Below are positions 6,627 through 20,499 of a stretch of DNA of 20,499 bases, piece by piece. Under the pieces are notes generated by a model that was given only the letters and a program-made list of their open reading frames with translations, made no database searches and was not told the DNA's origin. The stretch comes from a virus. The stretch's first letter is position 1. Every line of letters begins with the position of its first letter. The stretch spans positions 1 to 20,499 of IMG/VR virus record IMGVR_UViG_3300048121_000975. One strand, 5' to 3'. A program made the translations under genes and the position numbers.

Positions 6627-6645
6627 ATTGATTTATTTGTGGACA

Positions 6646-6695
6646 GAAAAAGCCCGCCGCAAAGGGAACTGATAACAAAACTCTGCGGCGGGCTT
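6646..6695 (-). terminator. Strong intrinsic terminator on the minus strand
   Basis: AAGCCCGCCGCA at 6650-6661 is the exact reverse complement of TGCGGCGGGCTT at 6684-6695, a 12-bp GC-rich stem with a 22-base loop. On the minus strand the stem is followed by TTTTT (complement of 6647-6651), the classic rho-independent arrangement; on the plus strand no T-run follows. It ends transcripts coming from the 63-aa coiled-coil gene, 20 bases before the polymerase start. Confidence 0.85.
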
Positions 6696-6706
6696 GCGTC
6701 CTAGTA

Positions 6707-6898
6707 TTAGGAATCTAGATCTAATTCTTTTTGCTCTCCCGAAACGTGGTCTAATGCTTCGCGCACCACCTGCAACTTCCGTAAATTACGTTCGATCTGT
6801 GCTTTCTGGTCACTAACTTCTGAGATCATACCATCCAGCATGTCGATCTCCTCAAGGAGCAACTCACGGACTTTCTTTTCTTTTTCGTCTTCAGTCAT
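6707..6898 (-). CDS. Small acidic coiled-coil protein
   Basis: A 63-aa highly charged protein, almost wholly helical, with heptad-like spacing of Leu, Ile and Val from about residue 8 to 54 (LLLEEIDMLDGMISEVSDQ) and an acidic end (ELDLDS). No family is recognised; it may dimerise and act as an adaptor for the protein encoded just upstream. The start at 6898 is well supported by GGAGG six bases before the ATG. That GGAGG lies inside the last two glycine codons of the preceding gene, whose stop is 2 bases upstream of this start. Its stop is followed within about 12 bases by the intrinsic terminator, so it closes a transcription unit. Confidence 0.7.
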   Translation of the reverse strand: MTEDEKEKKVRELLLEEIDMLDGMISEVSDQKAQIERNLRKLQVVREALDHVSGEQKELDLDS

Positions 6899-6900
6899 AA

Positions 6901-7551
6901 TTAACCTCCAAAGTTTTTGATGAACTCAAGGACGGCTTCATCTGTCTCTTCTGTAGTGGCAGTTAAGCTTGGATTGAACCATGTATATTTACCCTTTGAG
7001 AACTCTTCAGAAACAAAGTTCCATACCCTAGCACAGATAGGAGTGTTAGGATTAAAAGCCGCGCTGGTAGCAAGAATCTTGTAAGTAGTCCGATAAGCGT
7101 TCTTCCCTACGTTAATCTTACCCAAAGCATATCGGTTATCCCCAATAACGAGTGAGAATGCTGTTTCATCATCATTACCTTCCGGCTGGCGGAGTAATAA
7201 TGTAATCTCAGCAAACTCAGTCATTTGATATTCTGAATCATCAGAAATAGCCTCTGACTCTTCTTTGGACCACGCAATGCGTGGGACTTCATCTTCATCA
7301 AATGGGATATTCTCCCTCCAGCCTTTTTGAGCAACAACTGCAATCGCAGCTATTGTTTCATTAGGGCCAGCGACCACATGTTTACGATCAAAGACAATTG
7401 ATCCAACTGGAGCATCGCCTTGACTCATCTTCTGTGATACATTGATTCGAGGTATCTCGATATCACTGCGGTCGATTTCGATTCCGATGTTTACATTAGT
7501 CGAGAGTTCATTCTCGACTTCCTTCACTTGTTTAGCTTCTTTAGTAGCCAT
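6901..7551 (-). CDS. Protein of unknown function in the recombination/replication module
   Basis: A 216-aa acidic soluble protein. Residues 1-30 are polar and probably flexible. The middle (about 50-190) has alternating strands such as GSIVFDRKHVVAG, FAEITLLLRQPE and FSLVIGDNRYALG, which could be an OB-like or other beta fold. The C-terminus has an acidic patch (EETDEAVLEF) before a short aromatic end. It sits directly downstream of the Cas4/RecB-like nuclease gene (18 bases apart) and upstream of the coiled-coil gene. In phages with DUF2800-like nucleases the neighbour is often a single-stranded-DNA-binding protein (DUF2815), so that role is a reasonable guess, but I cannot confirm homology. 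No catalytic motif is seen. The ATG is preceded by TAAAAT six bases upstream and by no Shine-Dalgarno site. Confidence 0.6.
   Translation of the reverse strand: MATKEAKQVKEVENELSTNVNIGIEIDRSDIEIPRINVSQKMSQGDAPVGSIVFDRKHVVAGPNETIAAIAVVAQKGWRENIPFDEDEVPRIAWSKEESEAISDDSEYQMTEFAEITLLLRQPEGNDDETAFSLVIGDNRYALGKINVGKNAYRTTYKILATSAAFNPNTPICARVWNFVSEEFSKGKYTWFNPSLTATTEETDEAVLEFIKNFGG
6905..6909 (-). promoter_or_regulatory. Shine-Dalgarno site for the coiled-coil gene
   Basis: GGAGG on the minus strand, 6 bases before the ATG at 6898. It overlaps the final Gly-Gly codons of the 216-aa gene. It stands out because most genes here have no such site, and it suggests this small protein is needed in higher amounts than its neighbours. 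Confidence 0.75.
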
Positions 7552-7569
7552 ATTCTTATTTTATTTGGT

Positions 7570-8691
7570 TTACTGATTCGCGACACTGAATCGCTCCTCA
7601 GAGGTTTGGACTATGCCTGCGTCATCACAGGCGGCAAGGAAATTCTGTTGTTTTTCTCGTTTTTCTGATTTTTCTGCGTTTGCAGATACTAATTTTGAGA
7701 TCTTAGTAAGTGGGAAATTTAGTTCACTAATTATCTCACTTAATTCTAGACCATGTTCTTTTGCAATCTTTACGAGCATTTCGTTGTCAGCACACTTACG
7801 TGTTCGACCCATTGACCGTAGTTTTAGGCCGTCGAGTTTATCGCCGTCTTTTAACTTGGCGAGAGTCTTTGCCTTAATAGACGCTGCCCAATTCTCTACA
7901 ATTTTCGCGATGTTGAATAGCTCAGAGAGTCTAGCGGGATTGTCTACGTCGGTAGGGTCAATATCGGGCAACGTGGTATCGAGTTTCTTGGCGACACTAA
8001 TAACGAGTCCACCGAGTGCCGGACAAATATCCTCATGTCTACAGAAACGGCAGTACTGAGTTGGGGTGCATTCATCTAACTCAGGTGTGCCGGACTCCCA
8101 CTTCGGTCGGATCTCTTCACCTGCTTTAATGACTCGGCTTAGGTCTTCGACCAGAGCGGGGAGATCGTCTCGCGTAAACGTGTGATGAAGGGTCGCATTG
8201 TGTTGTGGCACGTAGAACGCGAAGACGATCTCCTGAATCTCAGGATACTTCTGGAAGGCCCCACATGTATATGCTTTGGCCTGCCAGTTCTTATCTGGCG
8301 GGTCAATGATCGAGATGCCTGTTTTGTAATCGGCCATGACGGCTCGGTCACCGCCTTTAAGGATCAAGAAGCGGTCACAGGTTCCCCATGTCTCGGTGCC
8401 GTCCAGAGCAACCTCAACTTGGATCTCGTTTAACTCCTCAGCGACCTCGCCGAAGTTAGTCATAAACTCCTGTTCCATTTGAACAATCTGTTCGTAGATC
8501 TCCAGCTCCTGTTCGGTGTGAAGGGCAGAAGGGTCAAAGACTTCGAGAGCTTCGTGAATTCTGGTCCCCATCTCAGCGGCGGCTGATGTGCCGTCACGTC
8601 CTTGATAAGCAGCACAGGCGGCTACATACTTTAGACTCGACGGAGAAAACTCCGCGTGGCCCCTATCGCTATGGTTTGGTTGTTCGCTCAT
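7570..8691 (-). CDS. Cas4/RecB-like PD-(D/E)XK nuclease with Fe-S cluster cysteines
   Basis: A 373-aa protein. The RecB/Cas4 nuclease signature is complete: His46 in MGTRIHEALE, Asp106 in GTCDRFLI, Asp121 and Lys123 in MADYKTG, and the QxxxY motif Gln137-Tyr141 in NWQAKAYTCG. Cys26 near the N-terminus, with Cys214, Cys217 and Cys223 (QYCRFCRHEDIC), matches the four-cysteine 4Fe-4S arrangement of Cas4 and AddB-type nucleases. The C-terminal 140 residues are helical. It resembles phage DUF2800-type exonucleases, which probably resect DNA ends for recombination or replication. No cas1 or cas2 is nearby, so a CRISPR role is not indicated. The start at 8691 overlaps the previous gene by 23 bases and has no Shine-Dalgarno site. 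Confidence 0.85.
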   Translation of the reverse strand: MSEQPNHSDRGHAEFSPSSLKYVAACAAYQGRDGTSAAAEMGTRIHEALEVFDPSALHTEQELEIYEQIVQMEQEFMTNFGEVAEELNEIQVEVALDGTETWGTCDRFLILKGGDRAVMADYKTGISIIDPPDKNWQAKAYTCGAFQKYPEIQEIVFAFYVPQHNATLHHTFTRDDLPALVEDLSRVIKAGEEIRPKWESGTPELDECTPTQYCRFCRHEDICPALGGLVISVAKKLDTTLPDIDPTDVDNPARLSELFNIAKIVENWAASIKAKTLAKLKDGDKLDGLKLRSMGRTRKCADNEMLVKIAKEHGLELSEIISELNFPLTKISKLVSANAEKSEKREKQQNFLAACDDAGIVQTSEERFSVANQ

Positions 8692-8845
8692 GGGTCGATT
8701 CTTTTATGTGCGTTACCTCACGCTGGATATAATCACGTTTCTTGATTGTTCGGTCAATTTTGTGGTTTAGCATGTAGATCTCATCCTCAAGTAATTTGAG
8801 GCGGATCTTCTCTGCATCAGTCAGATATTTAATGTTGTCGCTCAT
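8669..8845 (-). CDS. Small helical protein of unknown function
   Basis: A 58-aa, highly charged and probably coiled-coil protein: LTDAEKIRLKLLEDEIYML, then IDRTIKKRDYIQREV. I chose the ATG at 8845 (MSDNIKYL). A longer form would need a TTG at 8896 and overlap the upstream gene by 68 bases; the ATG form overlaps by 17. No Shine-Dalgarno site is seen before it (the bases are A/C-rich). No family is recognised. Its stop overlaps the start of the Cas4-like gene by 23 bases, so the pair is probably co-translated and may work together. Confidence 0.6.
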   Translation of the reverse strand: MSDNIKYLTDAEKIRLKLLEDEIYMLNHKIDRTIKKRDYIQREVTHIKESTHERTTKP

Positions 8846-9149
8846 TTTGTTGTTGTCTAAATTTTTTAATAATACTGTTAACTGCGTCACGCCCAAGATT
8901 AAACGAACGCGCTATCAAATCTCTCGGGTAACCCAAATCAGCTAACTCGGTAATAACGCGATGCCTAGCGTGAGAGGATTCAATTCTGGTTTGTATAGTC
9001 CTACCTTTTGGACCTCCCTCATCGAAGCGACTCATTACCCATTTAGGGGGTAACCCATACTGCTCTGAATATTTTTTAATCAGTCTTGTCGCATCAATGA
9101 CAATAGCTTCTTGCATCATCTTAGAGTTCTCTTTCATCTCAGAGTTCAT
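8829..9149 (-). CDS. Small HTH protein, possibly DnaA-domain-IV-like
   Basis: A 106-aa basic protein. The C-terminal half (about 60-97) reads ARHRVITELADLGYPRDL, then IARSFNLGRDAVNSIIKKF, a helix-turn-helix. Its layout resembles DnaA domain IV, with an Arg-containing first helix, a short linker, and GRDxV in the recognition helix. The N-terminal half is helical and includes KWVMSRFDEGGPKGR. It could bind the phage origin or act as a transcription regulator. The ATG at 9149 is supported by AAGGAG nine bases upstream. The gene lies two genes downstream of a second, clearer DnaA-like protein. The HTH is fairly certain; the DnaA link is tentative. Confidence 0.6.
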   Translation of the reverse strand: MNSEMKENSKMMQEAIVIDATRLIKKYSEQYGLPPKWVMSRFDEGGPKGRTIQTRIESSHARHRVITELADLGYPRDLIARSFNLGRDAVNSIIKKFRQQQNERQH

Positions 9150-9151
9150 GT

Positions 9152-9301
9152 TTATTTTCTCCTTTTATTTTTCTTGGGTTGTTTACCTTTTGAGTGTTTT
9201 GATTTAAACGTAGGGTCGTGAAACTGAATTAAAGTCTGACCTTTTTTGCCACTTCTGCTCCCTTTTGCAAACACAGAATTCCTTACAACTTTTGCTCTCA
9301 T
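9152..9301 (-). CDS. 49-aa basic protein of unknown function
   Basis: An open frame from ATG at 9299-9301 to TAA at 9152-9154. It encodes a 49-aa, very basic peptide starting MRAKVVRNSVFAKGSRSGKK and ending in a Lys/Arg/Asn tail (KQPKKNKRRK), with a central LIQFHDPTF. The start is 3 bases after the stop of the DnaA-like gene and its stop is 2 bases before the next start, so it fills this gap exactly, as expected of a real gene in a tightly packed operon. Its net charge suggests nucleic-acid or ribosome binding. No family is recognised. Confidence 0.6.
   Translation of the reverse strand: MRAKVVRNSVFAKGSRSGKKGQTLIQFHDPTFKSKHSKGKQPKKNKRRK
9159..9164 (-). promoter_or_regulatory. Shine-Dalgarno site for the small HTH gene
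   Basis: AAGGAG on the minus strand, 9 bases before the ATG at 9149. It lies inside the 3' end of the 49-aa gene. It is one of only a few recognisable Shine-Dalgarno sites in this window and fixes the start of the downstream gene. Confidence 0.65.
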
Positions 9302-9304
9302 GAT

Positions 9305-9628
9305 TTATGAGTTTAGTTGTTTAAGTACTGACTCGACGACTGAAGCTATCTCAGGGTCTTCCTTGATCCTCTGGTCAAGCGACTTAGATGCGTAAGCTAT
9401 CGAGCTACCGTGGGTGTAGCCGTAGTAAGATGACAGCGAACTATAGGTGAACTTAAACTTGTTCCTCAAGATGCCGACAGCAACCATACGGGGAATACAA
9501 TAAGAATAAGCCCTACTCTTAGTAAAAATCTCGTCACGATCTATGGCGAATTCTGAACATACTAGTTCCGTTACTTTGTCTATTATCTGTTTTTTGTAAG
9601 GGGTCATCCCTTTTATTTTTGTTTTCAT
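9305..9628 (-). CDS. Stand-alone DnaA-domain-IV-like DNA-binding protein
   Basis: A 107-aa protein whose residues about 20-90 match the layout of DnaA domain IV, the part that reads DnaA boxes: VCSEFAIDRDEIFTKSRAY (helix, then the R-containing loop), CIPRMVAVGILRNKF (the conserved Pro-Arg helix), TYSSLSSYYGYTHGSSIAYA (helix-turn-helix with the DHxxV-like turn as THGSS) and SKSLDQRIKED. There is no ATPase domain, so it is not an initiator by itself. It may bind the phage origin, regulate genes or interfere with host DnaA sites. It overlaps the end of the helicase gene by 4 bases (ATGA). The match is good by eye and should be confirmed by profile search. Confidence 0.75.
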   Translation of the reverse strand: MKTKIKGMTPYKKQIIDKVTELVCSEFAIDRDEIFTKSRAYSYCIPRMVAVGILRNKFKFTYSSLSSYYGYTHGSSIAYASKSLDQRIKEDPEIASVVESVLKQLNS

Positions 9629-10917
9629 TGATGTAGAATATTTAAGTTATCTGACTTCTGCTCAACAACACGCATAACGTGTTCTTCTATCGAATCGCTG
9701 GCAACTAGAATCTTCTGGATAGCGTCACTTTTTGCCCCGTTGCGGTGGATGCGCCCTAACGCTTGTAGGTGATCCTTGACGTTAAAGGTAGGCGAGATCA
9801 ACGAGATCCGTTGGCGGTCGCCGTTGATGTCGTGTAGAGAGATTCCGGTTCCACCAGCCGCAGTATTAATAACTAGGACGTGTTCTTCGTCCCTTTGAAA
9901 AGCGTCAATGATGTCCTGCCTGTCCTCGACTTTCTGTCCTCCTTTAATGCACGTACATTCTAGTAGTTCACAGAGGGTATCTACAGTATCTGTAAAATTT
10001 ACAAACAATACAACGCTATGACCTTGCTCTACGAAATCCTTAGCCATATCAGCCATGTCTTTAGCTTTGAGCGACTCCGCTAGCTGGCGAGCGCGTAACA
10101 AATTAACGAGAACCCAATCACTGTCTTCGACAGTTCCGTTCTCTAGAAGACTAGTGATGATCTCTGGAGTGATTCCAAGATCTTTATAAGCCTTAGCGAT
10201 CTTAGTAGCGGAACCAAAAGCTATCGGCTCAATAAAAACTCGGTTCTCTTTGAACGAGTCAGGAAAGTCATCCACTGTGAGACGCTTAACATTCTTCCCA
10301 TACATAACCTTATTGAGATCACTGAGTTTGGTTTTACGGCGCAGCTCCCATGCGTTCCACTGGTTTTGTAAACAGCCGTATTGCATCATCCAACTGAACC
10401 AACTCTTGAGACCATCTGATGCTTTGTTAAGATTATGTAACCCTAATGCGTAACCGATTGGCCTCATCTCAGTTGGGTCTTCCGCAGCAGTAGCGGACAT
10501 CGCATGAATTGAATAGCCTTGTGTAACGAGAGACACGAGAAGCTGAGCGTTCTGTGTATACGGCCCTTTACACTTATGGACCTCATCGACTAGCACTAGT
10601 GTGTCTTCTGGCAAGTGCCACGTCATGATCTTCTTGCCTCGCTTCGACATCCACTCTGTTTTACCAGTTCGGATCTTCTCGTAGTTGAGAACGAACAGTG
10701 GCTCGATTCCAGTCTCCTTGAGTTCACGCCCCCATGACGGGATAACTGATTTAGGGCAGAGGACTGCAACAGGTCTATTTAAGGTCTTAGCTAGATGGGC
10801 GGCTACCACCGTCTTACCAGTCCCGACATGGCTAGTGTCGAGTGAGTTCAAATCTAATCTATGTTTTGCTAGAAAGAAGTCAAAAGCCTCTTGCTGCTTT
10901 GGATATAATGTCTTCAT
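9625..10917 (-). CDS. SF2 helicase, SNF2/DEAD-like
   Basis: A 430-aa superfamily 2 helicase. Motif I (Walker A) is GTGKT at 32-36, motif II is DEVH at 111-114 (LVLVDEVHKCKG), motif III is SAT at 141-143, motif V is GGTGISLHD at 355-363, and motif VI is QALGRIHRNG at 385-394. The arrangement and the GRxxRxG form of motif VI are of the SNF2-like phage helicases that remodel or unwind DNA during replication and recombination. Its partners here are the RuvC-like resolvase upstream and the Cas4-like nuclease downstream. The ATG at 10917 has no Shine-Dalgarno site. A TATAGA box lies exactly 6 bases before it, inside an inverted repeat, suggesting a regulated, near-leaderless promoter. Confidence 0.9.
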   Translation of the reverse strand: MKTLYPKQQEAFDFFLAKHRLDLNSLDTSHVGTGKTVVAAHLAKTLNRPVAVLCPKSVIPSWGRELKETGIEPLFVLNYEKIRTGKTEWMSKRGKKIMTWHLPEDTLVLVDEVHKCKGPYTQNAQLLVSLVTQGYSIHAMSATAAEDPTEMRPIGYALGLHNLNKASDGLKSWFSWMMQYGCLQNQWNAWELRRKTKLSDLNKVMYGKNVKRLTVDDFPDSFKENRVFIEPIAFGSATKIAKAYKDLGITPEIITSLLENGTVEDSDWVLVNLLRARQLAESLKAKDMADMAKDFVEQGHSVVLFVNFTDTVDTLCELLECTCIKGGQKVEDRQDIIDAFQRDEEHVLVINTAAGGTGISLHDINGDRQRISLISPTFNVKDHLQALGRIHRNGAKSDAIQKILVASDSIEEHVMRVVEQKSDNLNILHQ

Positions 10918-10942
10918 TTATTGTCTATACACAGACAAATAA
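10918..10942 (-). promoter_or_regulatory. Inverted repeat over a possible -10 box before the helicase gene
   Basis: TTGTCT at 10921-10926 and AGACAA at 10933-10938 form a 6-bp perfect inverted repeat with a 6-base centre. Read on the minus strand, the repeat contains TATAGA (10929 to 10924), four of six matches to a -10 box, ending 6 bases before the helicase ATG. I found no convincing -35 at 15-19 bases upstream. The overlap of dyad and -10 would suit an operator; this is inferred. Confidence 0.35.
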
Positions 10943-10963
10943 TTGAAGCGACTAGCTATGTCC

Positions 10964-10984
10964 AGAAAAAGTTCAACTTTTTCT
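10964..10984. repeat. Perfect 10-bp-arm palindrome across the resolvase stop codon
   Basis: AGAAAAAGTT (10964-10973) and AACTTTTTCT (10975-10984) are exact reverse complements around one central base. The dyad spans the TGA of the RuvC-like gene. As RNA it could form a 9-bp A/U-rich hairpin with a TGA loop. It lacks a GC stem, so it is not a standard terminator; a protein-binding site is as likely. Confidence 0.6.
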
Positions 10985-11461
10985 ACTACCCCAAATATAT
11001 CGAGCGATAAGGTAGGCGTCGATCATACCATCATGTGGCGTCCGGCAGCGTTTATTAGCAAGCCAGTTCTCCGACGGCTCTAACTGGTTCGCTAGTTCCA
11101 AAGCTACTTCTTTAGTCCTACCTTTAGGAACTCTACCCAACATAACTTTCTGCCACTTGTGAACAGACACGCGCATTATGTTTTCGTAATCGTGGGACTC
11201 AGCCATCCCGACTAACTTACCAAATGAGATCGCCATTGACCTTACAGCTTGGCTGCTCTTCGCGTGTGCAAGCGGTTCTTCTACCGCAAAAATAAAAGGC
11301 GTATTCAAGTCCATTATCCACTGATGAACTTTACGGATGTCGATTTCTTTCTTCTTCGACATCTGAAGAGTCGGCATCCTAATCTTATCAATGAGGCTAC
11401 CGTCGAATTTAGATATTGCACAAAGTCCGCCATCTAATCCGTTGTCGATGCCGACGATCAT
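10973..11461 (-). CDS. RuvC-like Holliday junction resolvase
   Basis: A 162-aa RNase H-fold nuclease. The four acidic positions of the RuvC family are visible: Asp6 in VGIDNGLDGG, Glu61 in FAVEEPLAH, and Asp144 and Asp148 in HDGMIDAYLIARY. VSVHKWQKVMLG (98-109) matches the strand and helix found between the second and third acidic motifs of phage and bacterial RuvC proteins. It would cut four-way junctions before packaging. It overlaps the DUF1599-like gene upstream by 4 bases (ATGA). Downstream is a 55-base gap with two palindromes before the helicase gene. Length is usual for the family (about 160-175 aa). Confidence 0.85.
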   Translation of the reverse strand: MIVGIDNGLDGGLCAISKFDGSLIDKIRMPTLQMSKKKEIDIRKVHQWIMDLNTPFIFAVEEPLAHAKSSQAVRSMAISFGKLVGMAESHDYENIMRVSVHKWQKVMLGRVPKGRTKEVALELANQLEPSENWLANKRCRTPHDGMIDAYLIARYIWGSRKS

Positions 11462-11838
11462 TTCTCAGGACAATACAAATTGTCGCATTCACCACCAGAT
11501 ACCGGATTGCTGCAAGTGCCACACTCACGCTCCTCAGAGAGTAAGGCTTTCGCGAGAATCGAATAGTTCACGAGATCTTCACAGGCGTCATCTACTGACT
11601 CACCTGCTACCTTTAACTCACCGTCGTTAACGAACGACTTAATCCGCATCAGTTTATCCTGCATCCTTAACAGCAATCCGGTGACCGGATGGAGGCCAAG
11701 TGATTTAGCAGTCTTGAAATTGGCGAGTGCATCGACAGTGTTCTCACCACCGCAGTAGTCAGAGTTTTTTGCTCGCATAATTTCGAGCGTTTTCTTGCAC
11801 GTCGATTCGTGAAGACGGAATAAGGTTTCGGGTTTCAT
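11458..11838 (-). CDS. DUF1599-like (nucleotide modification-associated) protein with zinc tail
   Basis: A 126-aa helical protein. The pattern AKNSDYCGG (23-31), ALANFKTAKSLGL (37-49), RMQDKLMRIKSF (58-69) and AGESVDDACEDLVNYSIL (78-95) fits the DUF1599 / Nmad1-type family, which is related to all-alpha MazG-like nucleotide pyrophosphohydrolases. Glu80, Asp84 and Asp88 could bind metal. Such proteins are linked with nucleotide pools or base modification in phages. A C-terminal tail has Cys106, Cys109, Cys118 and Cys123 (CGTC...C...C), a likely zinc knuckle that I do not recall as a general part of the family. The start overlaps the previous stop (TAATG). No thymidylate synthase or other modification gene is in the window. 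Confidence 0.65.
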   Translation of the reverse strand: MKPETLFRLHESTCKKTLEIMRAKNSDYCGGENTVDALANFKTAKSLGLHPVTGLLLRMQDKLMRIKSFVNDGELKVAGESVDDACEDLVNYSILAKALLSEERECGTCSNPVSGGECDNLYCPEK

Positions 11839-12068
11839 TATTTTACGGGTATAGAGTCTCCTCTGACTAGTAGGCCATCGCCCTCTGCTGGAACTAAGAC
11901 TCTGATCCCTTTTGGCAGAGACTGCAAGTAGAATACTTCACGGGCCGTTGAAGGCTTCACGCGATACCAAAGACCATCAGCGGTATCTACCGGAAAACGG
12001 AAGTCTGCTCCGTGATCAATTCTGGTAATAAACTTTGGCCCTACTTCTGGCTCACGGTCATTAAACAT
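11838..12068 (-). CDS. 76-aa hypothetical protein
   Basis: I chose the ATG at 12068 (MFNDREPEVG), which lies 10 bases after the small terminase stop. A longer frame starting at 12212 would overlap that gene by 134 bases and adds an Arg/Ser-rich, unlikely N-terminus. The 76-aa product looks like a small beta protein (FRFPVDTADGLWYRVKPS, then KGIRVLVPAEGDGLLVRG), perhaps SH3-like, but no family is recognised. Its stop overlaps the start of the DUF1599-like gene. Function unknown. Confidence 0.6.
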   Translation of the reverse strand: MFNDREPEVGPKFITRIDHGADFRFPVDTADGLWYRVKPSTAREVFYLQSLPKGIRVLVPAEGDGLLVRGDSIPVK

Positions 12069-12078
12069 TGCAACGGTA

Positions 12079-12720
12079 TTAAATCTCTTTTCCAGTATCC
12101 GCGTCAATCGTTTTTTTCTGCTTGATCGCGCCTCCACCTTTATCTGCTTTAGAGTTATTGAGGATAGAGATGTCGATCTGCATCTTGCTAGTCCCACCAC
12201 CAGTTTTAGCATTTAGTCCTAAGTTACGTCTGATGAGCTGATCGAGTTCGGACATCTCGCGAATCGTCTTAGGTCCACGTAACCCCTTCATCGAATCACG
12301 TAGTAGTTTAATTCCTGCCGCCGCGATGTAGTGTTGGTATTTATCAGCAGGAGAGTTCTGTGCCTCAGCGATTTCGTTGAGGGTCACGTCCTCTTCTTTA
12401 GAGGCGCGGAATCGCTCTTCGACAATAGCTGAACTTACAGTATCGTTGAAGTGTTCTTCTACGTCTTCTTTAAGTTGGTCTTTGTCGGCATCCGGTTTAT
12501 GGTGTTCGTCTTTGACTTTTGTGTTGTGTATCAGGTTATCGAGAACTCTGCCGTCTACTATGTCCCCATTTATCTTGGCGGCGACTCCATGTTTCTTTAA
12601 CCACTTACGTATTGTATTGCGGTGGACTCCAATGTGTTGACCTATAGCCGCATTACTGTAACCTTCTTTGTTAAGGCGCAAGGCTTCAGCCTCGCACTCC
12701 CGTATAGGATTTTCAGACAT
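12079..12720 (-). CDS. Putative terminase small subunit (HTH DNA-binding)
   Basis: A 213-aa protein with an N-terminal helix-turn-helix at about 18-43 (EGYSNAAIGQHIGVHRNTIR), an acidic middle (about 70-115), a helical segment (ADKYQHYIAAAGIKLL) and LDQLIRRNLGLNAK around 160-172, then a Lys/Gly-rich end. HTH plus oligomerisation helices, directly beside the large terminase gene, suggests the subunit that recognises the packaging site. The unusual point is orientation: it is on the minus strand, divergent from terL with 10 bp between the start codons. It could instead be a transcription regulator of the divergent promoters. It is the first gene of the minus-strand arm in this window. Confidence 0.55.
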   Translation of the reverse strand: MSENPIRECEAEALRLNKEGYSNAAIGQHIGVHRNTIRKWLKKHGVAAKINGDIVDGRVLDNLIHNTKVKDEHHKPDADKDQLKEDVEEHFNDTVSSAIVEERFRASKEEDVTLNEIAEAQNSPADKYQHYIAAAGIKLLRDSMKGLRGPKTIREMSELDQLIRRNLGLNAKTGGGTSKMQIDISILNNSKADKGGGAIKQKKTIDADTGKEI

Positions 12721-12727
12721 CCATTAA

Positions 12728-12756
12728 ATTATGCCTTCCGAAGCAGAAAAGCGCAA
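12728..12756 (-). promoter_or_regulatory. Candidate promoter of the minus-strand arm, overlapping the terL start
   Basis: On the minus strand TTGCGC (12756 to 12751), a 17-base spacer, and CATAAT (12733 to 12728) resemble a sigma-70 promoter: three of six at -35 and five of six at -10. The -10 box contains the terL ATG, read in reverse, and ends 7 bases before the small-terminase ATG, giving an almost leaderless message. The weak -35 keeps this tentative. Confidence 0.3.
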
Positions 12757-14518
12757 GCGTGTTCTAGAGCCGAGAATCGACCCACAATCTAAGCAGATGG
12801 ACGTAGGGGGACTCATGATCCAGCCTACTAGCACGCTGACCGCTCTACTATACGGCTTCGCCCATCACCCTAATAATAAAGCTAAGGAGTTCTACTTCTG
12901 GAGAATCTGTGACGAACTCTGGAATAGAGAAGAACTACCAGAGCCTATGATGGTCCGTCATCCTTGGGCTGAAAAAATGATTCGGGCTGCTCTAAAGGAT
13001 AAGTATCTAGCAATTGGTGGTTCAGCCAGTAGTGGTAAGTCACACACCATGGCCGCATGGGGAATCGTCCAATGGCTCTGCCAGCCTCGTGACACACTGG
13101 TCCTGATGACCTCAACCACGTTACGGGAAGCACGAAAAAGGATTTGGGGTTCAGTTATGTCTTTGTTGTCCGTGATCGATGGTGCGCCGATCAAGATTCG
13201 GGATTCGATAGGAAACGCAGCGTATGTCGATGAGAACGGCACGCTTATCGAACGGGCCGGATTATCTCTGATCGCGGCGGAGAAGTCGAAGACACGCGAG
13301 GCAATAGGCAAGTTTATTGGTATCAAGCAGAAACGGGTAATTATGATCGGTGATGAACTTTCAGAACTTTCTGAAAGTATCTTGCAGGCTGGTCTGACCA
13401 ACTTATCGAAGAACCCCTTCTTTCAGATGATTGGTATGTCCAACCCGAATAGTCGCTTCGATGCCTTCGGAGTGTGGTCGGAACCAAAGAAAGGCTGGGA
13501 AGCCATCGACACACAGACCGCTGATGAGTGGAAAACGAAGTGGGGCGGTAAGTATATTCGACTCGACGGTGAACGAAGCCCTAACATTGTGTTAGGTGAG
13601 GTTAAGTATCCTTGGTTGCCGACCGCCGAAAAGCTAGAGGAGGACCGACTATTATTAGGACCAGAATCCAGAGGATATATGCGGATGGTCCGCGCCATCT
13701 TCTTTGACTCCGACGAGACAACCGGAATCTACTCAGAAGCTGAGATGGCTAAGAGTGGTTCAATGGGGGAGGTCGATTGGGCAGACAAGCCTACCGTCGT
13801 TGCCGGAATCGATCCGGCTTTCACTAATGGAGGCGATAGGACTATTATGTATACAGCAGAAGTCGGCTACGCTCGAAACGGCCAATACGTCTGCAAGTTA
13901 GGAGAAGCCATTCACCTCAATGACGATGCCACAAACAAAGCGGTTCCCCGCACATACCAAATCGTCCACCAGATTATCGATCACTGCAAACGTAGGAATA
14001 TCTCTGCTAACAATGTGGCTCTCGACTCCACTGGTGCAGGTGCGCCCTTCTGCGACGTTCTGGCTGGCGAGTGGGAGAGTTCGTTCATGCGCGTTACCTT
14101 TGGCGGAAAAGCTTCCGACAAGAGAGTCAGCATGAACAGCCAGCTCACAGGCGAAGAACTCTACACTAATAGAGTGTCAGAACTCTGGTTCGTCGGTAAG
14201 GAGCTGATGCGGACACGTCAGATCTACGGAATCTCGTCGGATTTAGCCAAAGAGATGTGCGCCAGAAACTACGATATGGTGAAAACGGGTTCCCTTAAAG
14301 TGAAGATCGAATCAAAATTAGAGTTCAAATCACGCTTCGGTAGGTCACCTGACTTAGCTGATGCCGCATTTCTCGCGCTCGATTGCGCTCGCCAAAGACT
14401 CGGAATGGTGGCTGTTGACCCACCGAAAGACGAAGATGGTAAAGGGTTCAGGAAACAGGTTACGATAAAAACGCTTCGGGATACGTTGCAAAACCCCGAT
14501 ACTCAGCTCCTTTCATAA
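12731..14518 (+). CDS. terL: Terminase large subunit
   Basis: A 595-aa packaging motor. The N-terminal ATPase has Walker A GSASSGKS at 97-104, the VLMTSTTLREARKRIWG segment at 124-140, Walker B VIMIGDE with Asp208-Glu209, and the coupling motif FFQMIGMSNPNS at 230-241. The C-terminal RNase H-like nuclease has Asp361 (VAGIDPAFTNGGDRT), Asp432 (NVALDSTGAGAP) and Asp544 (SPDLADAAFLALD), the three metal ligands that cut concatemeric DNA. All key residues are present. The start lacks a Shine-Dalgarno site and lies 10 bases from the divergent small-subunit start; no convincing promoter is visible just upstream. It is followed by the largest noncoding stretch in the window. Confidence 0.95.
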   Translation: MPSEAEKRKRVLEPRIDPQSKQMDVGGLMIQPTSTLTALLYGFAHHPNNKAKEFYFWRICDELWNREELPEPMMVRHPWAEKMIRAALKDKYLAIGGSASSGKSHTMAAWGIVQWLCQPRDTLVLMTSTTLREARKRIWGSVMSLLSVIDGAPIKIRDSIGNAAYVDENGTLIERAGLSLIAAEKSKTREAIGKFIGIKQKRVIMIGDELSELSESILQAGLTNLSKNPFFQMIGMSNPNSRFDAFGVWSEPKKGWEAIDTQTADEWKTKWGGKYIRLDGERSPNIVLGEVKYPWLPTAEKLEEDRLLLGPESRGYMRMVRAIFFDSDETTGIYSEAEMAKSGSMGEVDWADKPTVVAGIDPAFTNGGDRTIMYTAEVGYARNGQYVCKLGEAIHLNDDATNKAVPRTYQIVHQIIDHCKRRNISANNVALDSTGAGAPFCDVLAGEWESSFMRVTFGGKASDKRVSMNSQLTGEELYTNRVSELWFVGKELMRTRQIYGISSDLAKEMCARNYDMVKTGSLKVKIESKLEFKSRFGRSPDLADAAFLALDCARQRLGMVAVDPPKDEDGKGFRKQVTIKTLRDTLQNPDTQLLS

Positions 14519-14522
14519 GGTC

Positions 14523-14540
14523 TATAAAGTAAACGATTTA
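14523..14540 (+). repeat. Motif copy 1: TATAAAG-TAAAC
   Basis: TATAAAGTAAACGATTTA. Compared with copy 3 (14602-14620) it lacks two bases after TATAAAG and has one extra G before ATTTA. It lies 5 bases after the terL stop codon. Confidence 0.55.
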
Positions 14541-14580
14541 GTAGTAAGCTGGATACGGTAACTAAAACTTTTTCAAAAGC

Positions 14581-14615
14581 GTTTACTCTTTATATACTTA
14601 CTATAAAGAGTAAAC
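14581..14615. repeat. Perfect 14-bp inverted repeat (motif copies 2 and 3)
   Basis: GTTTACTCTTTATA at 14581-14594 is the exact reverse complement of TATAAAGAGTAAAC at 14602-14615, with a 7-base loop (TACTTAC). As RNA this would be a long A/U-rich hairpin; no U-run follows at once (ATTTACAG), so it is not a textbook terminator. As DNA it is two oppositely facing copies of the motif also present at 14523. Confidence 0.8.
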
Positions 14616-14661
14616 ATTTACAGAAAAGTTTTTGGAGTAGGTTTGAGTAAGATCCCGAAGA

Positions 14662-14690
14662 TTGACACTATTCAATAAAAACTGTATCTT
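14662..14690 (+). promoter_or_regulatory. Sigma-70-type promoter, predicted leaderless
   Basis: TTGACA at 14662-14667 is a perfect -35. After a 17-base spacer, TATCTT at 14685-14690 is a four-of-six -10. The start codon GTG begins 7 bases after the -10 ends, at 14697, where transcription should begin, so the message would have no or almost no 5' leader. It would drive the small basic protein and the late genes after it. Confidence 0.65.
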
Positions 14691-14696
14691 CTGCCT

Positions 14697-14990
14697 GTGG
14701 CGAATAAGCGTTTCAAGAGGCTCCCGTCTGGCCGTATCCAATACCACGGTGAGACTTACGCGGGGTTCAATAAGCCGAAGCGTGCGCCAAAAGGATCTAA
14801 AAAGAAATTCGTCGTGTTAGGTAAAGAAGGAGATAAGATTAAGAAAGTCTCATACGGCCACCGTGATTACAGTGACTTCACGAAACACAAGAACCCTAAG
14901 CGTCGGGCTAACTTCAGAGCCAGACACAACTGCAAAACAGCAAAAGATAAAACAACCGCACGCCACTGGGCTTGCAAACACCTTTGGTAA
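14697..14990 (+). CDS. Small basic phage protein (RANFRARHNC-type family)
   Basis: A 97-aa very basic protein with YHGETYAGFNKPKRAPKGSK (residues 16-35), KKVSYGHRDYSDF, then RRANFRARHNCKTAKDK and ARHWACKHLW at the end. I know this pattern from small proteins of T7-like marine phages; DUF5754-like is my best label and is uncertain. Function unknown; its charge suggests DNA or RNA binding. GTG at 14697 is the only start that keeps the conserved N-terminus and no in-frame ATG lies nearby. There is no Shine-Dalgarno site, and the predicted transcription start falls on the GTG itself. Confidence 0.75.
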   Translation: MANKRFKRLPSGRIQYHGETYAGFNKPKRAPKGSKKKFVVLGKEGDKIKKVSYGHRDYSDFTKHKNPKRRANFRARHNCKTAKDKTTARHWACKHLW

Positions 14991-14992
14991 TC

Positions 14993-16180
14993 ATGACAGA
15001 AGCGGAGAAGAAAAGGTTAAAGGCAACGTTAAATAAAATAAAGTCTGAGACAGCTAAAGAAGTATCCTCGACGGTTAACGCTCCTGAAACTAGCGAACAG
15101 AAAACAGCTCGTTTAGATAAAGATACTTTAAATCGAAGAGTATCTCAAATCACAGATGCTTACGAAAAAAGAAATGTGGATGAAAAAAGAAATGAGCAAC
15201 TAGGTTCACTATCTTATGGTCTGGATGGACAGCCCTATACACCGACATCCGAAAACATGGTATCTGTGCCACCAGATGCAGGTGCGCCTACCTTGCCTCA
15301 AGGGGTCACTGGAAGTCAAGCTATTGGTATGTTTGAGCAGAAAGATGCTGCACAGCCCCCCGCCGCTGCCAATTCTGAGAAACAAACAAAGGCTATGAGT
15401 TCTGCGTCGGACTACCTAAAGTCTTTAGGCCCAACTGGTAATATCCCGACTATAGCGCAAGAGAACACAAAACCCTTAAAATCTAGTAGTATAGAAACTG
15501 ATTCTTTAGGGAAATTGTCAGTAGGTATACAGGGCATGAATGTGGACGCCGCAATTGATAAAGCCTACAAAGACTACGAGAACGCCCCAATCCAGAGAGG
15601 TATTGCTAGAGGTCTTAGAAACCTTTCGAGACGTGGTGCTTTAACTTCAGACCTTCTTAGAGAAGCACGCGACCGTGCAACTGCTGCTGGTGTATCAGCC
15701 GACAAGTTCTCCTCTTTCCTAAAGAAGAATAGGATTAGAGAACAAAACTTCACTAGCTCTCCAAGAGCAACTTCTTCAGGAGAGGCTACTGAGAACGTGA
15801 TGGCAGCGAGGACTGGCCTTGGCGCACTCGCCGCGATGCAAGACCCTAGCTATGAGGTAGGTAGTGGTAGCCCCTTACGTAAAAAATCTGAGCCTATTGG
15901 TCCCGCAAGTGGGAAAGGACGCCGCGCCGCCCGAAGACTCCGCCGCCAAGGTTATGGGAGAGCAGCGGAACAGACCGCTATGGCTGCGGAAACAGCCCGC
16001 TTTAGTGAACCTTCGATTACTTCAGACGCTACTAGAGACCAGAGTTATGCTGAAGCCGCAGCCGAAGCCGCAGAAATGAGAAATCAGCAACGCTTGAGGG
16101 AAGAGCAACAACGTGAGTATGACCGTCAGCAAAGAGAGCGAGGAGTCTCACGAGGGCCGAACGGAGCAGTAAACAAATAA
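14993..16180 (+). CDS. Low-complexity, coiled-coil protein; possible virion or scaffold protein
   Basis: A 395-aa protein from the ATG at 14993, 2 bases after the previous stop; an upstream TTG at 14972 would overlap that gene and is less likely. The N-terminus is charged and helical, the region around 65-130 is rich in Pro, Gln, Ala and Ser, the middle has IQRGIARGLRNLSRRGAL, and the end has a basic patch (GKGRRAARRLRRQGYGRA) followed by an Ala/Glu and Gln/Arg-rich helix. No catalytic motif or membrane segment is seen. Placement after terL and before other helical proteins suggests a structural, scaffold or internal virion role. I do not recognise a family. Confidence 0.6.
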   Translation: MTEAEKKRLKATLNKIKSETAKEVSSTVNAPETSEQKTARLDKDTLNRRVSQITDAYEKRNVDEKRNEQLGSLSYGLDGQPYTPTSENMVSVPPDAGAPTLPQGVTGSQAIGMFEQKDAAQPPAAANSEKQTKAMSSASDYLKSLGPTGNIPTIAQENTKPLKSSSIETDSLGKLSVGIQGMNVDAAIDKAYKDYENAPIQRGIARGLRNLSRRGALTSDLLREARDRATAAGVSADKFSSFLKKNRIREQNFTSSPRATSSGEATENVMAARTGLGALAAMQDPSYEVGSGSPLRKKSEPIGPASGKGRRAARRLRRQGYGRAAEQTAMAAETARFSEPSITSDATRDQSYAEAAAEAAEMRNQQRLREEQQREYDRQQRERGVSRGPNGAVNK

Positions 16181-16184
16181 GCGG

Positions 16185-17195
16185 ATGGATTTAAATTATA
16201 GTCAAGACATCGCCCCACTCCGGCAGCAGTTCTTCCCTATGCAGATGGGGAGCCGTGCGTTTGATCGTGCGATGAAACACCATCAAGAGGTTATCTTACC
16301 TATGCAGAAGCAGACAATGCAGATGCAGAGTAATATCCTCAAGATGCAGAACGACGAACTTGCATTTAAACGACAAAACTTTGAGCTAAATCAGGCTAGA
16401 AAAGCAGCCCGTCGTGAGAACGAAGCGATGGAGCGGATTCCTGACGTTATAGACCAGATCAATACTATCACGGATGACCCCACAAAAGATGTCTTTGAGC
16501 GCCAGAAGGACATCCTTAAACTCCAGATGCAGTATCAGCCATTCGCGAAGTATTCACCTTCGATGAATAACTTGTTTACAGCCGCATCCCGTTCCATTGA
16601 TGTTGATTATAAGAAGGAAACAAGGAACGATAAGCTTATTCAAGACGCTGCTCTTAGGGGTGTTTCATCTGAAAAAATAGCAGACCTTGCTGCACAGGAT
16701 GGGGTTCTCTCCATGAGTGATGAAGCTTCTATTGGGATCTCAACTGCGTTAGAGGATAAGACCCAGAGAGAACTTAGGGTGAAGCAGTTTGAGTTGTTGG
16801 AGGACCGCCGCAAAGAAGACGTTAAAGCACTCACTAGGAGAGCTGAGGATATTAAGTCTACTTTGATTAGCCTTGTTCCAAAAGCTACGTCTTCTACATC
16901 GAAGGAGATGCTATATGATGGTTATATCTTTGCGAAGCAAAAAGCAGCGCAGGGAGATCAAACAGCCAAAGAAGAGTTCCTTAGAAAGAGAGACCTCTTA
17001 GAAGAACTCTATTACGATCTTCTTTCACCTGCTGAGAAAGTTGCCTTTGACCGTGACCCAGACGCCATGCCTGACGAACAAATGTTTAGGGCCGTCTATA
17101 GAAGAGCGAGTGCCTTACAAAGATCTGTCCAGATGCCAGAGCTTGCCGACGGGTCATCATTACCATCAACCATATCCAGTTCATTCACCAAATAA
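16185..17195 (+). CDS. Helical, Met/Gln-rich protein; probable internal virion protein
   Basis: A 336-aa, largely helical protein. Residues about 18-60 are rich in Met and Gln (PMQKQTMQMQSNILKMQNDE), and a long charged coiled coil follows to about 85. Later parts are helical repeats such as RQKDILKLQMQYQP and REKQ-like stretches around 190-235. It starts 4 bases after the preceding stop. Its stop is followed by a small 7-bp-arm hairpin. Such proteins beside a giant helical protein often form the internal core or ejection complex of podovirus particles; this is inferred from composition and place, not from a recognised family. Confidence 0.6.
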   Translation: MDLNYSQDIAPLRQQFFPMQMGSRAFDRAMKHHQEVILPMQKQTMQMQSNILKMQNDELAFKRQNFELNQARKAARRENEAMERIPDVIDQINTITDDPTKDVFERQKDILKLQMQYQPFAKYSPSMNNLFTAASRSIDVDYKKETRNDKLIQDAALRGVSSEKIADLAAQDGVLSMSDEASIGISTALEDKTQRELRVKQFELLEDRRKEDVKALTRRAEDIKSTLISLVPKATSSTSKEMLYDGYIFAKQKAAQGDQTAKEEFLRKRDLLEELYYDLLSPAEKVAFDRDPDAMPDEQMFRAVYRRASALQRSVQMPELADGSSLPSTISSSFTK

Positions 17196-17197
17196 AA

Positions 17198-17212
17198 CTA
17201 GTGTAACACTAG
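17198..17212. repeat. Short perfect palindrome after the helical protein gene
   Basis: CTAGTGT and ACACTAG flank one central A, 2 bases after the stop at 17195. It could form a 6-bp hairpin with a TAA loop in RNA. There is no T-run after it, so termination is doubtful; RNA processing or protein binding are alternatives. It lies in a 53-base gap before the giant gene. Confidence 0.45.
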
Positions 17213-17248
17213 AAAACATCACCACTAACATCCCAAACCTCTTCAGCT

Positions 17249-20200
17249 ATGTCTGACTTGTACCTTACTCCATACGAAAGAAATCGTCTTCCTGAGACTC
17301 AAACCCCGAAGCAAACAATTAAACCGTTCTCTGAATGGACAGGTGAAAAGGATTTATCTAGTGATGCCCCTTACAACTACCTACGTTACGCCGATTATGT
17401 CCGCGACACGATGGGGGACTCTTACGACACTCAAGCGGAGGTTGAGATCCAGAAGGGCTTACGTGAAGGGTTATCTACGATCTCCGGTATGGACGAGGAG
17501 ACTCTTGAGAAGACACTCACTCCCGAAGAACCTACCTTCAATCAAAACGTAAAGATGGTTTACTCCGCTTTGCCGGAAGGGCCAGAGCGTCAAACTTTAC
17601 GTGATTATATCGCAGGAGCTACGACTGTATCTGAACAACCAGACGCTACTGAAGAATACAAAGCTGACGTTGAGATAATGCGGACGAAGGCGGAGGCTAT
17701 TGTAGGTAGCCGTATTGATGAAGCGAAACAAGTTCTAGTAAACGAAGGAGACCTCTCTTTTGCTTTTGTAAAGGACGACCAGAGCGAAGACGGGAAACGA
17801 TTAATAGTTGGGGACTCAGCTATCTCTACCCCATTAGTTAGGGCGATCAGATCTTCAAGAATGGGTGGGGTATCCTTCATGGATGTGCCTGCTCTTCAGT
17901 ACCAGACAACAGCGCACCCTTATTCTAACATCCCTATCTTTAAGCATAAGCAGCTTATGGAGATTTCTAAAGGGATCGAGGCTCTTGCTAAGAGTGACTC
18001 TATGGTTAACGAACACCTTCTTGGCCACGCTAGGCGGAGGGGGAGGCACGACCAAACATTTATTGAAAAGAAAGCTGAACAGTTTGGTCGCGGAGTTTCT
18101 AGGATATTAAATGCAGTAGGGATTGAAGATGAATATAAAGGGGCAAGGCGGGAAAGAGTTACAAGAGCGAGGTACACTAACCATGACTCTATAGTTGAGC
18201 ATATCACTGAGCAGCTTAATGAGAGTGGGGCGAACTACAACCCGCACGATGTTCGTGATGCTTATGAGAACAACGTCGTCCAGACAGGGTTCCAAAAAGG
18301 TGTCTTTAAACTTCGTCAAGAAGACGAAGAGGATTTCCAACAGAACATCCAGATTACGAGACTTGGGCCTGTTGTTAACCCTAAAGCTTATCTTCAGAAT
18401 GATGTGTTTGAAGGTGTGTTAAAACACCCTGACCTTAATGAATCACAGAAAGCTGTGATTAAAGAGTCTAGGGATATCGCTTTAACTCAAAACTTCCAAG
18501 ACTATAGCAGGACACTCAGTAACTCTGACTATAAAGATGAATGGTCTAAAGAACTTCTGGCTGGTAGGCTGGCTGGTAAGAAAGACCCACAGATCTTAAC
18601 AGACTTCTTAACTGATAACGATACTTATAGTGATGTCTTTGCGAGAGGAGAGAGCGTAAGAATCGGACTAGTAGATTCCATTGCTAGCCTTTACTACTTA
18701 GCTGTATCTAAGTTAGGTGACGAAGAGTTCGGTCATAGAGGGTTAGTAGGCATCGCAGAAGATCAAGCGAAGCGGCGTAAGCTTGCTGAAATGTTTGGGG
18801 CTGATTGGGGAGTCGAGCAAGACATCATGGAAGGAGCAGCCCCGTTAGTAGTAGACGTGGTAGCAACTGGCCTTTTAGGAGTAGCAACAGGAGGAGCCGC
18901 TGGAGTAGGTTATTTAACCGCTAAGACCGGAGCTAGACTAACTTTAAACGGTTTAATTAAAGGTATAACTTCTAACGCCCTTAGAGCCACTGGGACAGAA
19001 GCTTTAGAGCGGGTAGCTAAGACGGCTGTATCACGAGGTCTTATTAAAGAGTCTGTAGAGACGGGAGGTCGTAAAGCTACTATTAAAGCACTTGGAGCCT
19101 ATAACAACACAATCGCTAAGAAGTTAGGTATCCAATCGGCTTTGTATACAACAGCTTCAAACCGTATCACGTCTGGTGCTTACGGTAACATGTACTCTCA
19201 ACTTAGAGAAGCTTACCCAGACATGTCCGATCAAGAAGTTCGCGATAAGGCAATGGGTTACGCGACGAGCATGGGAACAGTCGGAGGATTAATAACTTCT
19301 GCTTTCTCGTTGATGGGTCGCGGTGCTGTAGATGACGCCCTCCTTAAAGGGATGAACTTTAGGCAGGCCAAAGAATTAATTAAATCGTTTGGTAACGTAG
19401 CGGGTATCACTGATAAATCATTAGCGGGGGCTATGAAGGAGGTGATGGAAGTCACTCTTAAAAAGCACGGTAAGAGTTTATTGAAGGGGGCGAGGCGTGG
19501 ACTTAAACACGGGGGTGATGAAGCGATGGAGGAGGGAATCTCTGAACTCGTTAACACTTACATTGAAGACGTTGCCTTAGAACAAGAGACCCCTCTTATG
19601 GAACGGTTCCAACAGGTGGCTGGAGCTGCTTTTGTTGGTGGTGTATTTGGAACGGGTGTCCCTGCTGCGAGAGCCGTGGCTAGTAAGTTGGGGGTAACTC
19701 CAATGGACAGAGTGATGCAGCAAGTCCAGTTGGAGAACCAGTTCTATGAAGACGTTGCACAGAAATTAAAAGCTACTGGTAGTAGTCTGTCAGCAAAAGA
19801 AATCCGTAATAAGGTTAAAGAGCGTGCGAGGACTAGACCAGTTGAAGCCCCAACTAAAGCACAGCCACCAGCCCTCCCGACTCCTGAAGAAGGGAAAAAG
19901 GATTTCGTTGAGGTTGATAACAGACCACCTGATGGTGTAAAAGAAGATCAACTCTCGTCTACCATCAATACGAATGAGCTAGAGCAAGGACCAGCCGCAG
20001 TGGAGGCACTACTTAAAGCCGTCCGTATGATCGACCCTAAAGAGGCGACGATCCGGTTCGATGGAATCCAACAGCGAGACAGAGGTAAGTTCTCTGCCCA
20101 GTTTGAGGAAACAACAACGATGGACATGAGTGATCTTAGTATCACCCCATCAGAAGACAGCACTACTCCTTTTGACGTTGACCTAAACCTCACTGAGTTC

Positions 20201-20499
20201 GGTCGGCGACTAAGGAATGTAACTGAAGGGCCAGACACTAATACTGTCGTGGGTCATCAGACACAACGAGTCGTTGGGCATAACGCCGAAAGACGTTCAA
20301 GTATCCCTGCAAACTCTAAAGCGCGTGCGAAGCGTAACGCATCTGGCTTCATCGAGTTTGATAACGAGATCAGCCCGACTGTTCAAAGAAAGATTTTTGA
20401 ACTAGCCTCAGCGGGTTACCCCGCAACTGTAACGAGAAGCATCTCTTACGGTATCCCACTCCCTAAAGGTGCTAGTGAGGTTGCCCTTACTGAACACGC
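17249..20499 (+). CDS. Giant protein, at least 1083 aa, truncated by the window; probable internal virion protein
   Basis: The frame from ATG at 17249 (MSDLYLTPYERNRLPETQTP) is open for 1083 codons to the end of the window with no stop. It is mostly helical and charged. A Gly/Ala/Val-rich hydrophobic segment at about 529-560 (LVVDVVATGLLGVATGG) and a second at about 790-815 (GAAFVGGVFGTGVPAARA) could enter a membrane. Between them lie SGAYGNMYSQLREAYPDMSD and DEAMEEGISELVNTYIED, layouts I associate with large internal or polyvalent phage proteins ejected with DNA. A Pro-rich linker (KAQPPALPTPEE) is near 870. No transglycosylase or protease site is seen in the visible part. The start has no Shine-Dalgarno site. 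Confidence 0.75.
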   Translation, partial: MSDLYLTPYERNRLPETQTPKQTIKPFSEWTGEKDLSSDAPYNYLRYADYVRDTMGDSYDTQAEVEIQKGLREGLSTISGMDEETLEKTLTPEEPTFNQNVKMVYSALPEGPERQTLRDYIAGATTVSEQPDATEEYKADVEIMRTKAEAIVGSRIDEAKQVLVNEGDLSFAFVKDDQSEDGKRLIVGDSAISTPLVRAIRSSRMGGVSFMDVPALQYQTTAHPYSNIPIFKHKQLMEISKGIEALAKSDSMVNEHLLGHARRRGRHDQTFIEKKAEQFGRGVSRILNAVGIEDEYKGARRERVTRARYTNHDSIVEHITEQLNESGANYNPHDVRDAYENNVVQTGFQKGVFKLRQEDEEDFQQNIQITRLGPVVNPKAYLQNDVFEGVLKHPDLNESQKAVIKESRDIALTQNFQDYSRTLSNSDYKDEWSKELLAGRLAGKKDPQILTDFLTDNDTYSDVFARGESVRIGLVDSIASLYYLAVSKLGDEEFGHRGLVGIAEDQAKRRKLAEMFGADWGVEQDIMEGAAPLVVDVVATGLLGVATGGAAGVGYLTAKTGARLTLNGLIKGITSNALRATGTEALERVAKTAVSRGLIKESVETGGRKATIKALGAYNNTIAKKLGIQSALYTTASNRITSGAYGNMYSQLREAYPDMSDQEVRDKAMGYATSMGTVGGLITSAFSLMGRGAVDDALLKGMNFRQAKELIKSFGNVAGITDKSLAGAMKEVMEVTLKKHGKSLLKGARRGLKHGGDEAMEEGISELVNTYIEDVALEQETPLMERFQQVAGAAFVGGVFGTGVPAARAVASKLGVTPMDRVMQQVQLENQFYEDVAQKLKATGSSLSAKEIRNKVKERARTRPVEAPTKAQPPALPTPEEGKKDFVEVDNRPPDGVKEDQLSSTINTNELEQGPAAVEALLKAVRMIDPKEATIRFDGIQQRDRGKFSAQFEETTTMDMSDLSITPSEDSTTPFDVDLNLTEFGRRLRNVTEGPDTNTVVGHQTQRVVGHNAERRSSIPANSKARAKRNASGFIEFDNEISPTVQRKIFELASAGYPATVTRSISYGIPLPKGASEVALTEH

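Follow-up and report, generated by a model that had tools for sequence, protein, structure and literature searches.

The window analysed here is the whole of a 20,499-nt (20.5-kb) virus record, IMG/VR IMGVR_UViG_3300048121_000975, from an uncultivated marine phage. Its TerL matched none of 50,697 phage records, i.e. the phage has no cultured relative at the TerL level. The terL gene and a terS-like gene are divergent and separated by a 10-nt gap (12720-12731), so that each must have its promoter within the opposite gene. Upstream, on the minus strand (9305-9628), a stand-alone DnaA domain-IV-like protein (Pfam Bac_DnaA_C, E 7e-8) is encoded next to a small HTH protein, and is found in only some relatives. 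The gap downstream of terL (14519-14696) contains one palindrome, followed by a sigma-70-like promoter and by the gene of a DUF5754 protein (Table 1), which has a 56% match in Roseobacter phage CRP-2, where the gene order is different. Leaderless sigma-70-like promoters, with a -10 box ending 5-8 nt before the start codon, are present at the DUF5754 gene, the portal gene, a 314-aa gene and a small basic gene. The end of the window (17249-20497, plus strand) holds the start of a giant, almost unannotated virion-region protein (in relative L165 at 5381-18193, minus strand), which measures 2323-4270 aa in relatives and is very divergent between close genomes.

Table 1. Positions of the terL-downstream palindrome, its parts and its neighbours in the window.
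Feature	Position	Strand	Evidence and remarks
Terminase large subunit	12731..14518	+	PHROG 2, E 3e-14; ends 45 nt before the element
Third motif copy of the preliminary description, TATAAAGTAAAC	14523..14534	+	Probable chance match or decayed copy
Whole palindromic element, terL-locus copy, type 'GTTTACTC'	14564..14633		Repeat search; covariance model R1; kept in L003-L007
Left outer arm, AAAACTTTTT	14564..14573	+	Alignment A4; most conserved part across types
Inner left arm, type-specific	14581..14594	-	Shared unchanged by the window and L003-L007; L001/L002 have unrelated arms
Loop TACTTAC	14595..14601		Reverse complement GTAAGTA in the same-type second copy, G001/L301
Inner right arm, type-specific	14602..14615	+	Repeat and motif search
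Right outer arm, AAAAGTTTTT	14624..14633	+	Alignment A4
Sigma-70-like promoter TTGACA-17-TATCTT	14662..14690	+	6 nt before the GTG start (leaderless); follows the element in almost every relative
97-aa DUF5754 protein, opening the virion-gene operon downstream	14697..14990	+	Pfam PF19058, PHROG 7595

The core of the palindrome consists of perfect 14-nt inverted arms (GTTTACTCTTTATA and TATAAAGAGTAAAC) around a 7-nt loop, which confirms the perfect inverted repeat that a preliminary description of this DNA had placed behind terL. The structure is bigger than was described then, as the two outer arms extend it to a longer imperfect palindrome. The inner repeat is the sole perfect inverted repeat of the window with arms of at least 14 nt and a loop of at most 12 nt; such repeats occurred 0 times in 60 dinucleotide shuffles of the window and once in 2000 shuffles of the gap, and RNA folding of the gap gives z = -3.1. 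Covariance model R1 matches the element with 44 bits on the plus strand and 41 bits on the minus strand, and no Rfam 15 family matches the window at gathering score. Repeat, motif and covariance-model searches of the 20.5-kb record found no further copy, as the preliminary description had stated. That description had also counted three copies of a motif in the gap, two of which are the arms of this single hairpin. The third, a "direct" copy, lacks the AG of the motif and does not rise above chance, 5 of 34 arms of unrelated types scoring at least equally; it is retained in L007 only and is absent from L003-L006 despite their identical hairpin. The three copies thus come down to the two arms of one hairpin and a probable chance match. 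Genuine third and fourth arm copies exist in other lineages.

Searching viral contigs with TerL yielded 80 loci, all from metagenome assemblies. Aligning the gap downstream of terL, as had been proposed, reveals a palindrome between terL and the next promoter (TTGACA-N17, leaderless) in all but a few of about 75 relatives; the exceptions are two loci that end there (L015, L068), three with weak stems (L012, L014, L016) and one with an inserted stretch (L072). The most conserved columns across types are the outer A tract and T tract (alignment A4), and most types also keep TTAG/CTAA at the ends of the inner arms. At this locus, 40 distinct inner hairpins were extracted. Among 16 aligned types or variants, 95.5% of the cells are paired, and changes on both sides number 45, compared with 14.5 for shuffles (0/500) and no more than 20 for slid controls. 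Paired cells together with this excess of both-side changes indicate that the hairpin is maintained by compensating change; selection acts on the palindrome structure, the sequence being free to drift. The preliminary description had named a lack of conservation, or arms varying without compensation, as observations that would count against it; what we found is a conserved hairpin whose arms change in pairs. Selection on the RNA only was considered and rejected: wobbles at terL leaned to G-T (20 versus 8 A-C in 40 hairpins), which was not upheld in the genomes with both loci described below, where G-T and A-C count 6 versus 7 at terL and 11 versus 4 at the second locus and so give no firm strand bias.

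The inner arms comprise at least 29 types, their changes being paired on both strands (29 types on 62 distinct terL sequences at a type threshold of 90%). Inner hairpins of relatives are mostly either similar or very dissimilar. Identical hairpins are seen at terL nucleotide identities of 82-90% (86% for the window and L003, 82% for L042 and L057), and very different hairpins are seen at terL identities of up to 97% (L035/L038) or 93% (the window and L001). On the terL tree, type changes number 31, where the minimum is 28 and shuffled labels give about 52, indicating that each clade owns its type and that types turn over fast. When L035 is compared with L038, or L013 with L025, the inner palindrome alone differs, and outer arms, internal loops and flanks are identical.

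Complete-looking relatives carry the element again 15-23 kb beyond the terL copy. This second copy is located 3' of the small basic gene (80-90 aa) and usually directly 5' of a NUMOD4-like gene (138-156 aa) that precedes the portal gene, the loci of both proteins being outside the window. A tandem pair occupies the second locus in G006, G007, G008, G014, G018 and others, and the G002/G004 lineage has a third copy elsewhere in the genome. The orientation of the copies varies among genomes; in G001, the copy of the window's type (TTTACTCTTTATA-GTAAGTA-TATAAAGAGTAAA) is inverted relative to the window copy. A scan of viral contigs with the window hairpin retrieved only five same-type relatives, one copy each, and missed this second G001 copy because its arms are 13 nt. 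A covariance-model search of 688 kb (contigs of 14 relatives plus the window; E ≤ 1) detected nothing beyond the known loci.

We measured the two-locus match in the genomes of relatives, the window record carrying the terL-locus copy. In 21 of 21 genomes with both loci, the second copy matches the terL copy, with a mean inner-hairpin identity of 0.942 within a genome versus 0.642 when genomes are shuffled (0/20,000; 21 genomes). Both copies also match in G036, which is not among the 21 and in which no NUMOD4 gene was detected. Genome pairs that share a type and have both loci are few. Since the copies nearly always match within a genome despite their lineage-specific sequence, something keeps both alike. 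Copying, rather than convergence, would be the simplest cause, because the match runs beyond the arms into the flanks: the two elements of G010, each of about 76 nt, are alike across arms and flanks in inverted orientation, and those of G031 match over roughly 100 nt, as far as the -35 of the next promoter.

The reading that we place first, with somewhat less than even confidence, is that the element is a symmetric hairpin or cruciform insulator, similar to a bidirectional terminator, in concerted evolution. The palindrome occupies two fixed junctions, one after terL and one after the small basic gene 15-23 kb on, and would act there as a two-way boundary, most likely blocking read-through from the preceding gene into the next unit. 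The copies may exchange sequence by recombination or template switching, in which case the arms would change together and each lineage would have its own matching type; the phage encodes an exonuclease and a RuvC-like resolvase. The element lies behind a stop codon and, at the terL locus, also before a strong leaderless promoter, and in the window a T tract directly follows the stem, as in an intrinsic terminator (AAAACTTTT...AAAAG, then T5); stop codon, promoter and T tract together suggest a terminator. A consensus terminator scan called none at 14564-14633, where the base of the stem is A/T-rich rather than G+C-rich. A one-way terminator was rejected, as the A and T tracts are equally long (means of 5.7 and 5.9 at the terL locus): with a 5' A tract as strong as the 3' T tract and both neighbours of the terL copy on the plus strand, it would leave the symmetry unexplained. 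Further points count against the insulator or terminator. Several lineages have no promoter between the second copy and the next gene. Identical hairpins at 14-18% terL divergence would need strong homogenisation if the sequence were irrelevant. Finally, terminators within a few bases of a stop codon are reportedly repressed by the ribosome (PMC4824070). Two other transcriptional roles were rejected, namely a late-promoter element, as two other leaderless promoters have no such palindrome, and a hairpin promoter for an N4-like virion RNA polymerase, as the 4270-aa virion protein has no RNA-polymerase domain in Pfam or PHROGs.

Nearly as likely as the two-way insulator or cruciform, and to be taken as tentative, is that a fast-evolving protein encoded by the phage reads the inner arms as a recognition site specific to the type, such as an operator or enhancer. 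Both copies would have to fit the reader, so that reader and arms would change together, by analogy with lambda N and boxB or with baculovirus IE1 and the hr palindromes. The within-genome identity of the two copies fits such a site, as do the full conservation of inner arms within a type despite terL differences of up to 18%, the variable orientation of the copies and the presence, in several lineages, of extra single arms of the genome's own type, which in G017 are all clustered at the two loci. Binding alone does not demand that the flanks beyond the arms also match, and the element is missing from two other leaderless promoters of the genome.

Which protein could read the arms was considered among the products encoded by these phages. 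The HTH and DnaA-like proteins, named as candidate binders in the preliminary description, cannot be the specific reader, nor can the TerS-like protein, since they are almost unchanged between unrelated arm types: the window and L001 share the DnaA-C-like protein at 99% identity, the window and G012 share the HTH protein at 90%, and the TerS-like protein keeps 85-97% identity across most types. The candidates for a reader are the two proteins encoded beside the second copy. The NUMOD4-like protein diverges fast while the portal stays 94-100% identical; in its N domain, pairs of the same type are 0.86-0.98 identical, and pairs of different types (portal at least 0.94) do not exceed 0.86. The C domain aligns with residues 1-66 of the DNA-binding homing endonuclease I-HmuI at Z 9.3 and rmsd 2.1 (64 aa). 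The Pfam NUMOD4 assignment is a weak hint (E 0.02), and Foldseek alone gave no match below E 0.001. The small basic protein follows arm type about as well, and for both proteins identities overlap at 0.86-0.91 between types; both track type only weakly. As both genes adjoin the second copy, this tracking is suggestive only, and on these comparisons the NUMOD4-like protein is a better reader candidate than the HTH, DnaA-like or TerS-like proteins. Against a dedicated reader, no protein follows type cleanly and the linkage is partly physical neighbourhood; moreover, the NUMOD4 gene of G029 is displaced from the element, and G036 keeps both copies with no NUMOD4 detected. A wider form of the recognition-site reading, which we consider slightly more doubtful, is that the palindrome is a lineage-specific "code" placed at two control sites; a partner protein of the phage with the matching specificity would read it, and lineages would switch code by exchanging the inner arms at both sites at once, which would create mutually incompatible regulatory or replication types in one phage group.

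The binding-site and origin interpretation of the preliminary description is partly supported: it keeps the conserved hairpin with its paired arm changes, and gains no support from the named binders or from GC skew; a sequence-specific regulator or origin function is possible for the element. As a replication origin or single-strand initiation hairpin proper, present twice per genome with one copy near each point of divergent transcription, we regard it as unlikely. Both copies do lie near the two points where gene orientation diverges, the centre is AT-rich, and the window's replication module (primase, PolA, SSB-like, exonuclease) shares 98-99% identity with that of the same-type G001 and about 56-83% with those of most other types. 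However, the turning point of the GC skew in six genomes coincides with the coding-strand switch in terL, 1.4-1.6 kb away from the element, and so lends no support to an origin there; L001 combines a window-like replication module with a different arm type, and no initiator was identified.

We give slightly less weight still to a mobile palindrome, MITE- or REP-like or linked to homing, that recopies itself within each genome. The near-identical dispersed copies, the tandem copies at the second locus, the extra copy of the G002/G004 lineage and the NUMOD4-like neighbour gene would suit such an element. Its positions are nevertheless the same across diverged phages, the covariance model finds no copies elsewhere in the contigs of 14 relatives, and type changes between close relatives swap the inner arms only. 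Instead of the many non-homologous positions that define REP or MITE families, it has two fixed loci and one extra copy in one lineage.

A T7-like hairpin for concatemer processing or packaging beside terL is very improbable: it adjoins terL and many contigs end shortly 3' of this gene, but each genome has two loci, self-overlap is seen in most of the largest contigs, whose opening points vary, and TerS-anchored contigs also end widely inside terL. A genome end behind terL was likewise rejected, as contig ends, although clustered there, are found inside terL too, and most large contigs self-close. The 0.9 kb downstream of terL contains the ends of about 22 contigs and the 0.9 kb upstream the starts of only about 5, a distribution that a genome end or an assembly break in a conserved region could explain. 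A target of site-specific recombination (protelomerase or tyrosine recombinase) was rejected, integrase family PF00589 being absent from 9 relatives and present in 14 of 14 controls.

Two side observations concern the phage group. Two different TerL relatives (L316, L317) lie on contigs that share the bin of one uncultured Opitutae (Verrucomicrobiota) MAG, which hints weakly at Verrucomicrobiota hosts. In two relatives, stable hairpin pairs recur in the early minus-strand gene region (L165:414-493, 714-793 and 1149-1228; L270 at about 13397-13476), with arms of about CATAGCTC(A/G)CA...TGTGAGCTATG followed by a G+C-rich CCCCGC...GCGGGG stem, and look like a second dispersed RNA-like family.

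The palindrome offers a clear case of a cis-element at two distant sites of a phage genome in concerted evolution, with at least 29 types. Should a reader protein exist, these types would represent dozens of natural protein-DNA specificity pairs; should there be none, homogenisation would be so strong that arms stay identical between phages whose genes differ by 14-18%. In both cases, the element provides a convenient landmark when the transcription units of these phages are mapped.

A literature search found no description of such an element, and several known systems resemble it in part. Like REP/BIME and MITE sequences, it is a short palindromic intergenic repeat, near-identical within a genome; unlike them, it has just two or three copies at fixed homologous positions. 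The T7 concatemer-junction hairpin is a palindrome beside the terminase gene, as here, but our element has a second copy 15-23 kb away beside unrelated genes. With bidirectional intrinsic terminators it shares the order A tract, stem, T tract and the position after a stop codon and before a promoter; it differs in its long stem with an A/T-rich base, whose inner part is homogenised between two loci. Lambdoid phages have the nutL and nutR boxB hairpins, a pair of sites per genome with the N protein as partner; the two sites agree within a phage and differ from those of other phages. Our element shows the same pattern of agreement and difference, but boxB is a short, directional RNA hairpin located close to early promoters, and the element is long, symmetric and independent of orientation, its partner being only a candidate. 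In baculoviruses, the hr sequence varies between species. Baculovirus hrs are A+T-rich imperfect palindromes, several per genome and some in tandem, implicated as origins and enhancers (PMC5794183). The present element resembles them in having several A+T-rich palindromes, alike within a genome, different between genomes and sometimes tandem; hrs belong to eukaryotic viruses, form longer arrays and occupy more places, and no IE1-like partner is known here.
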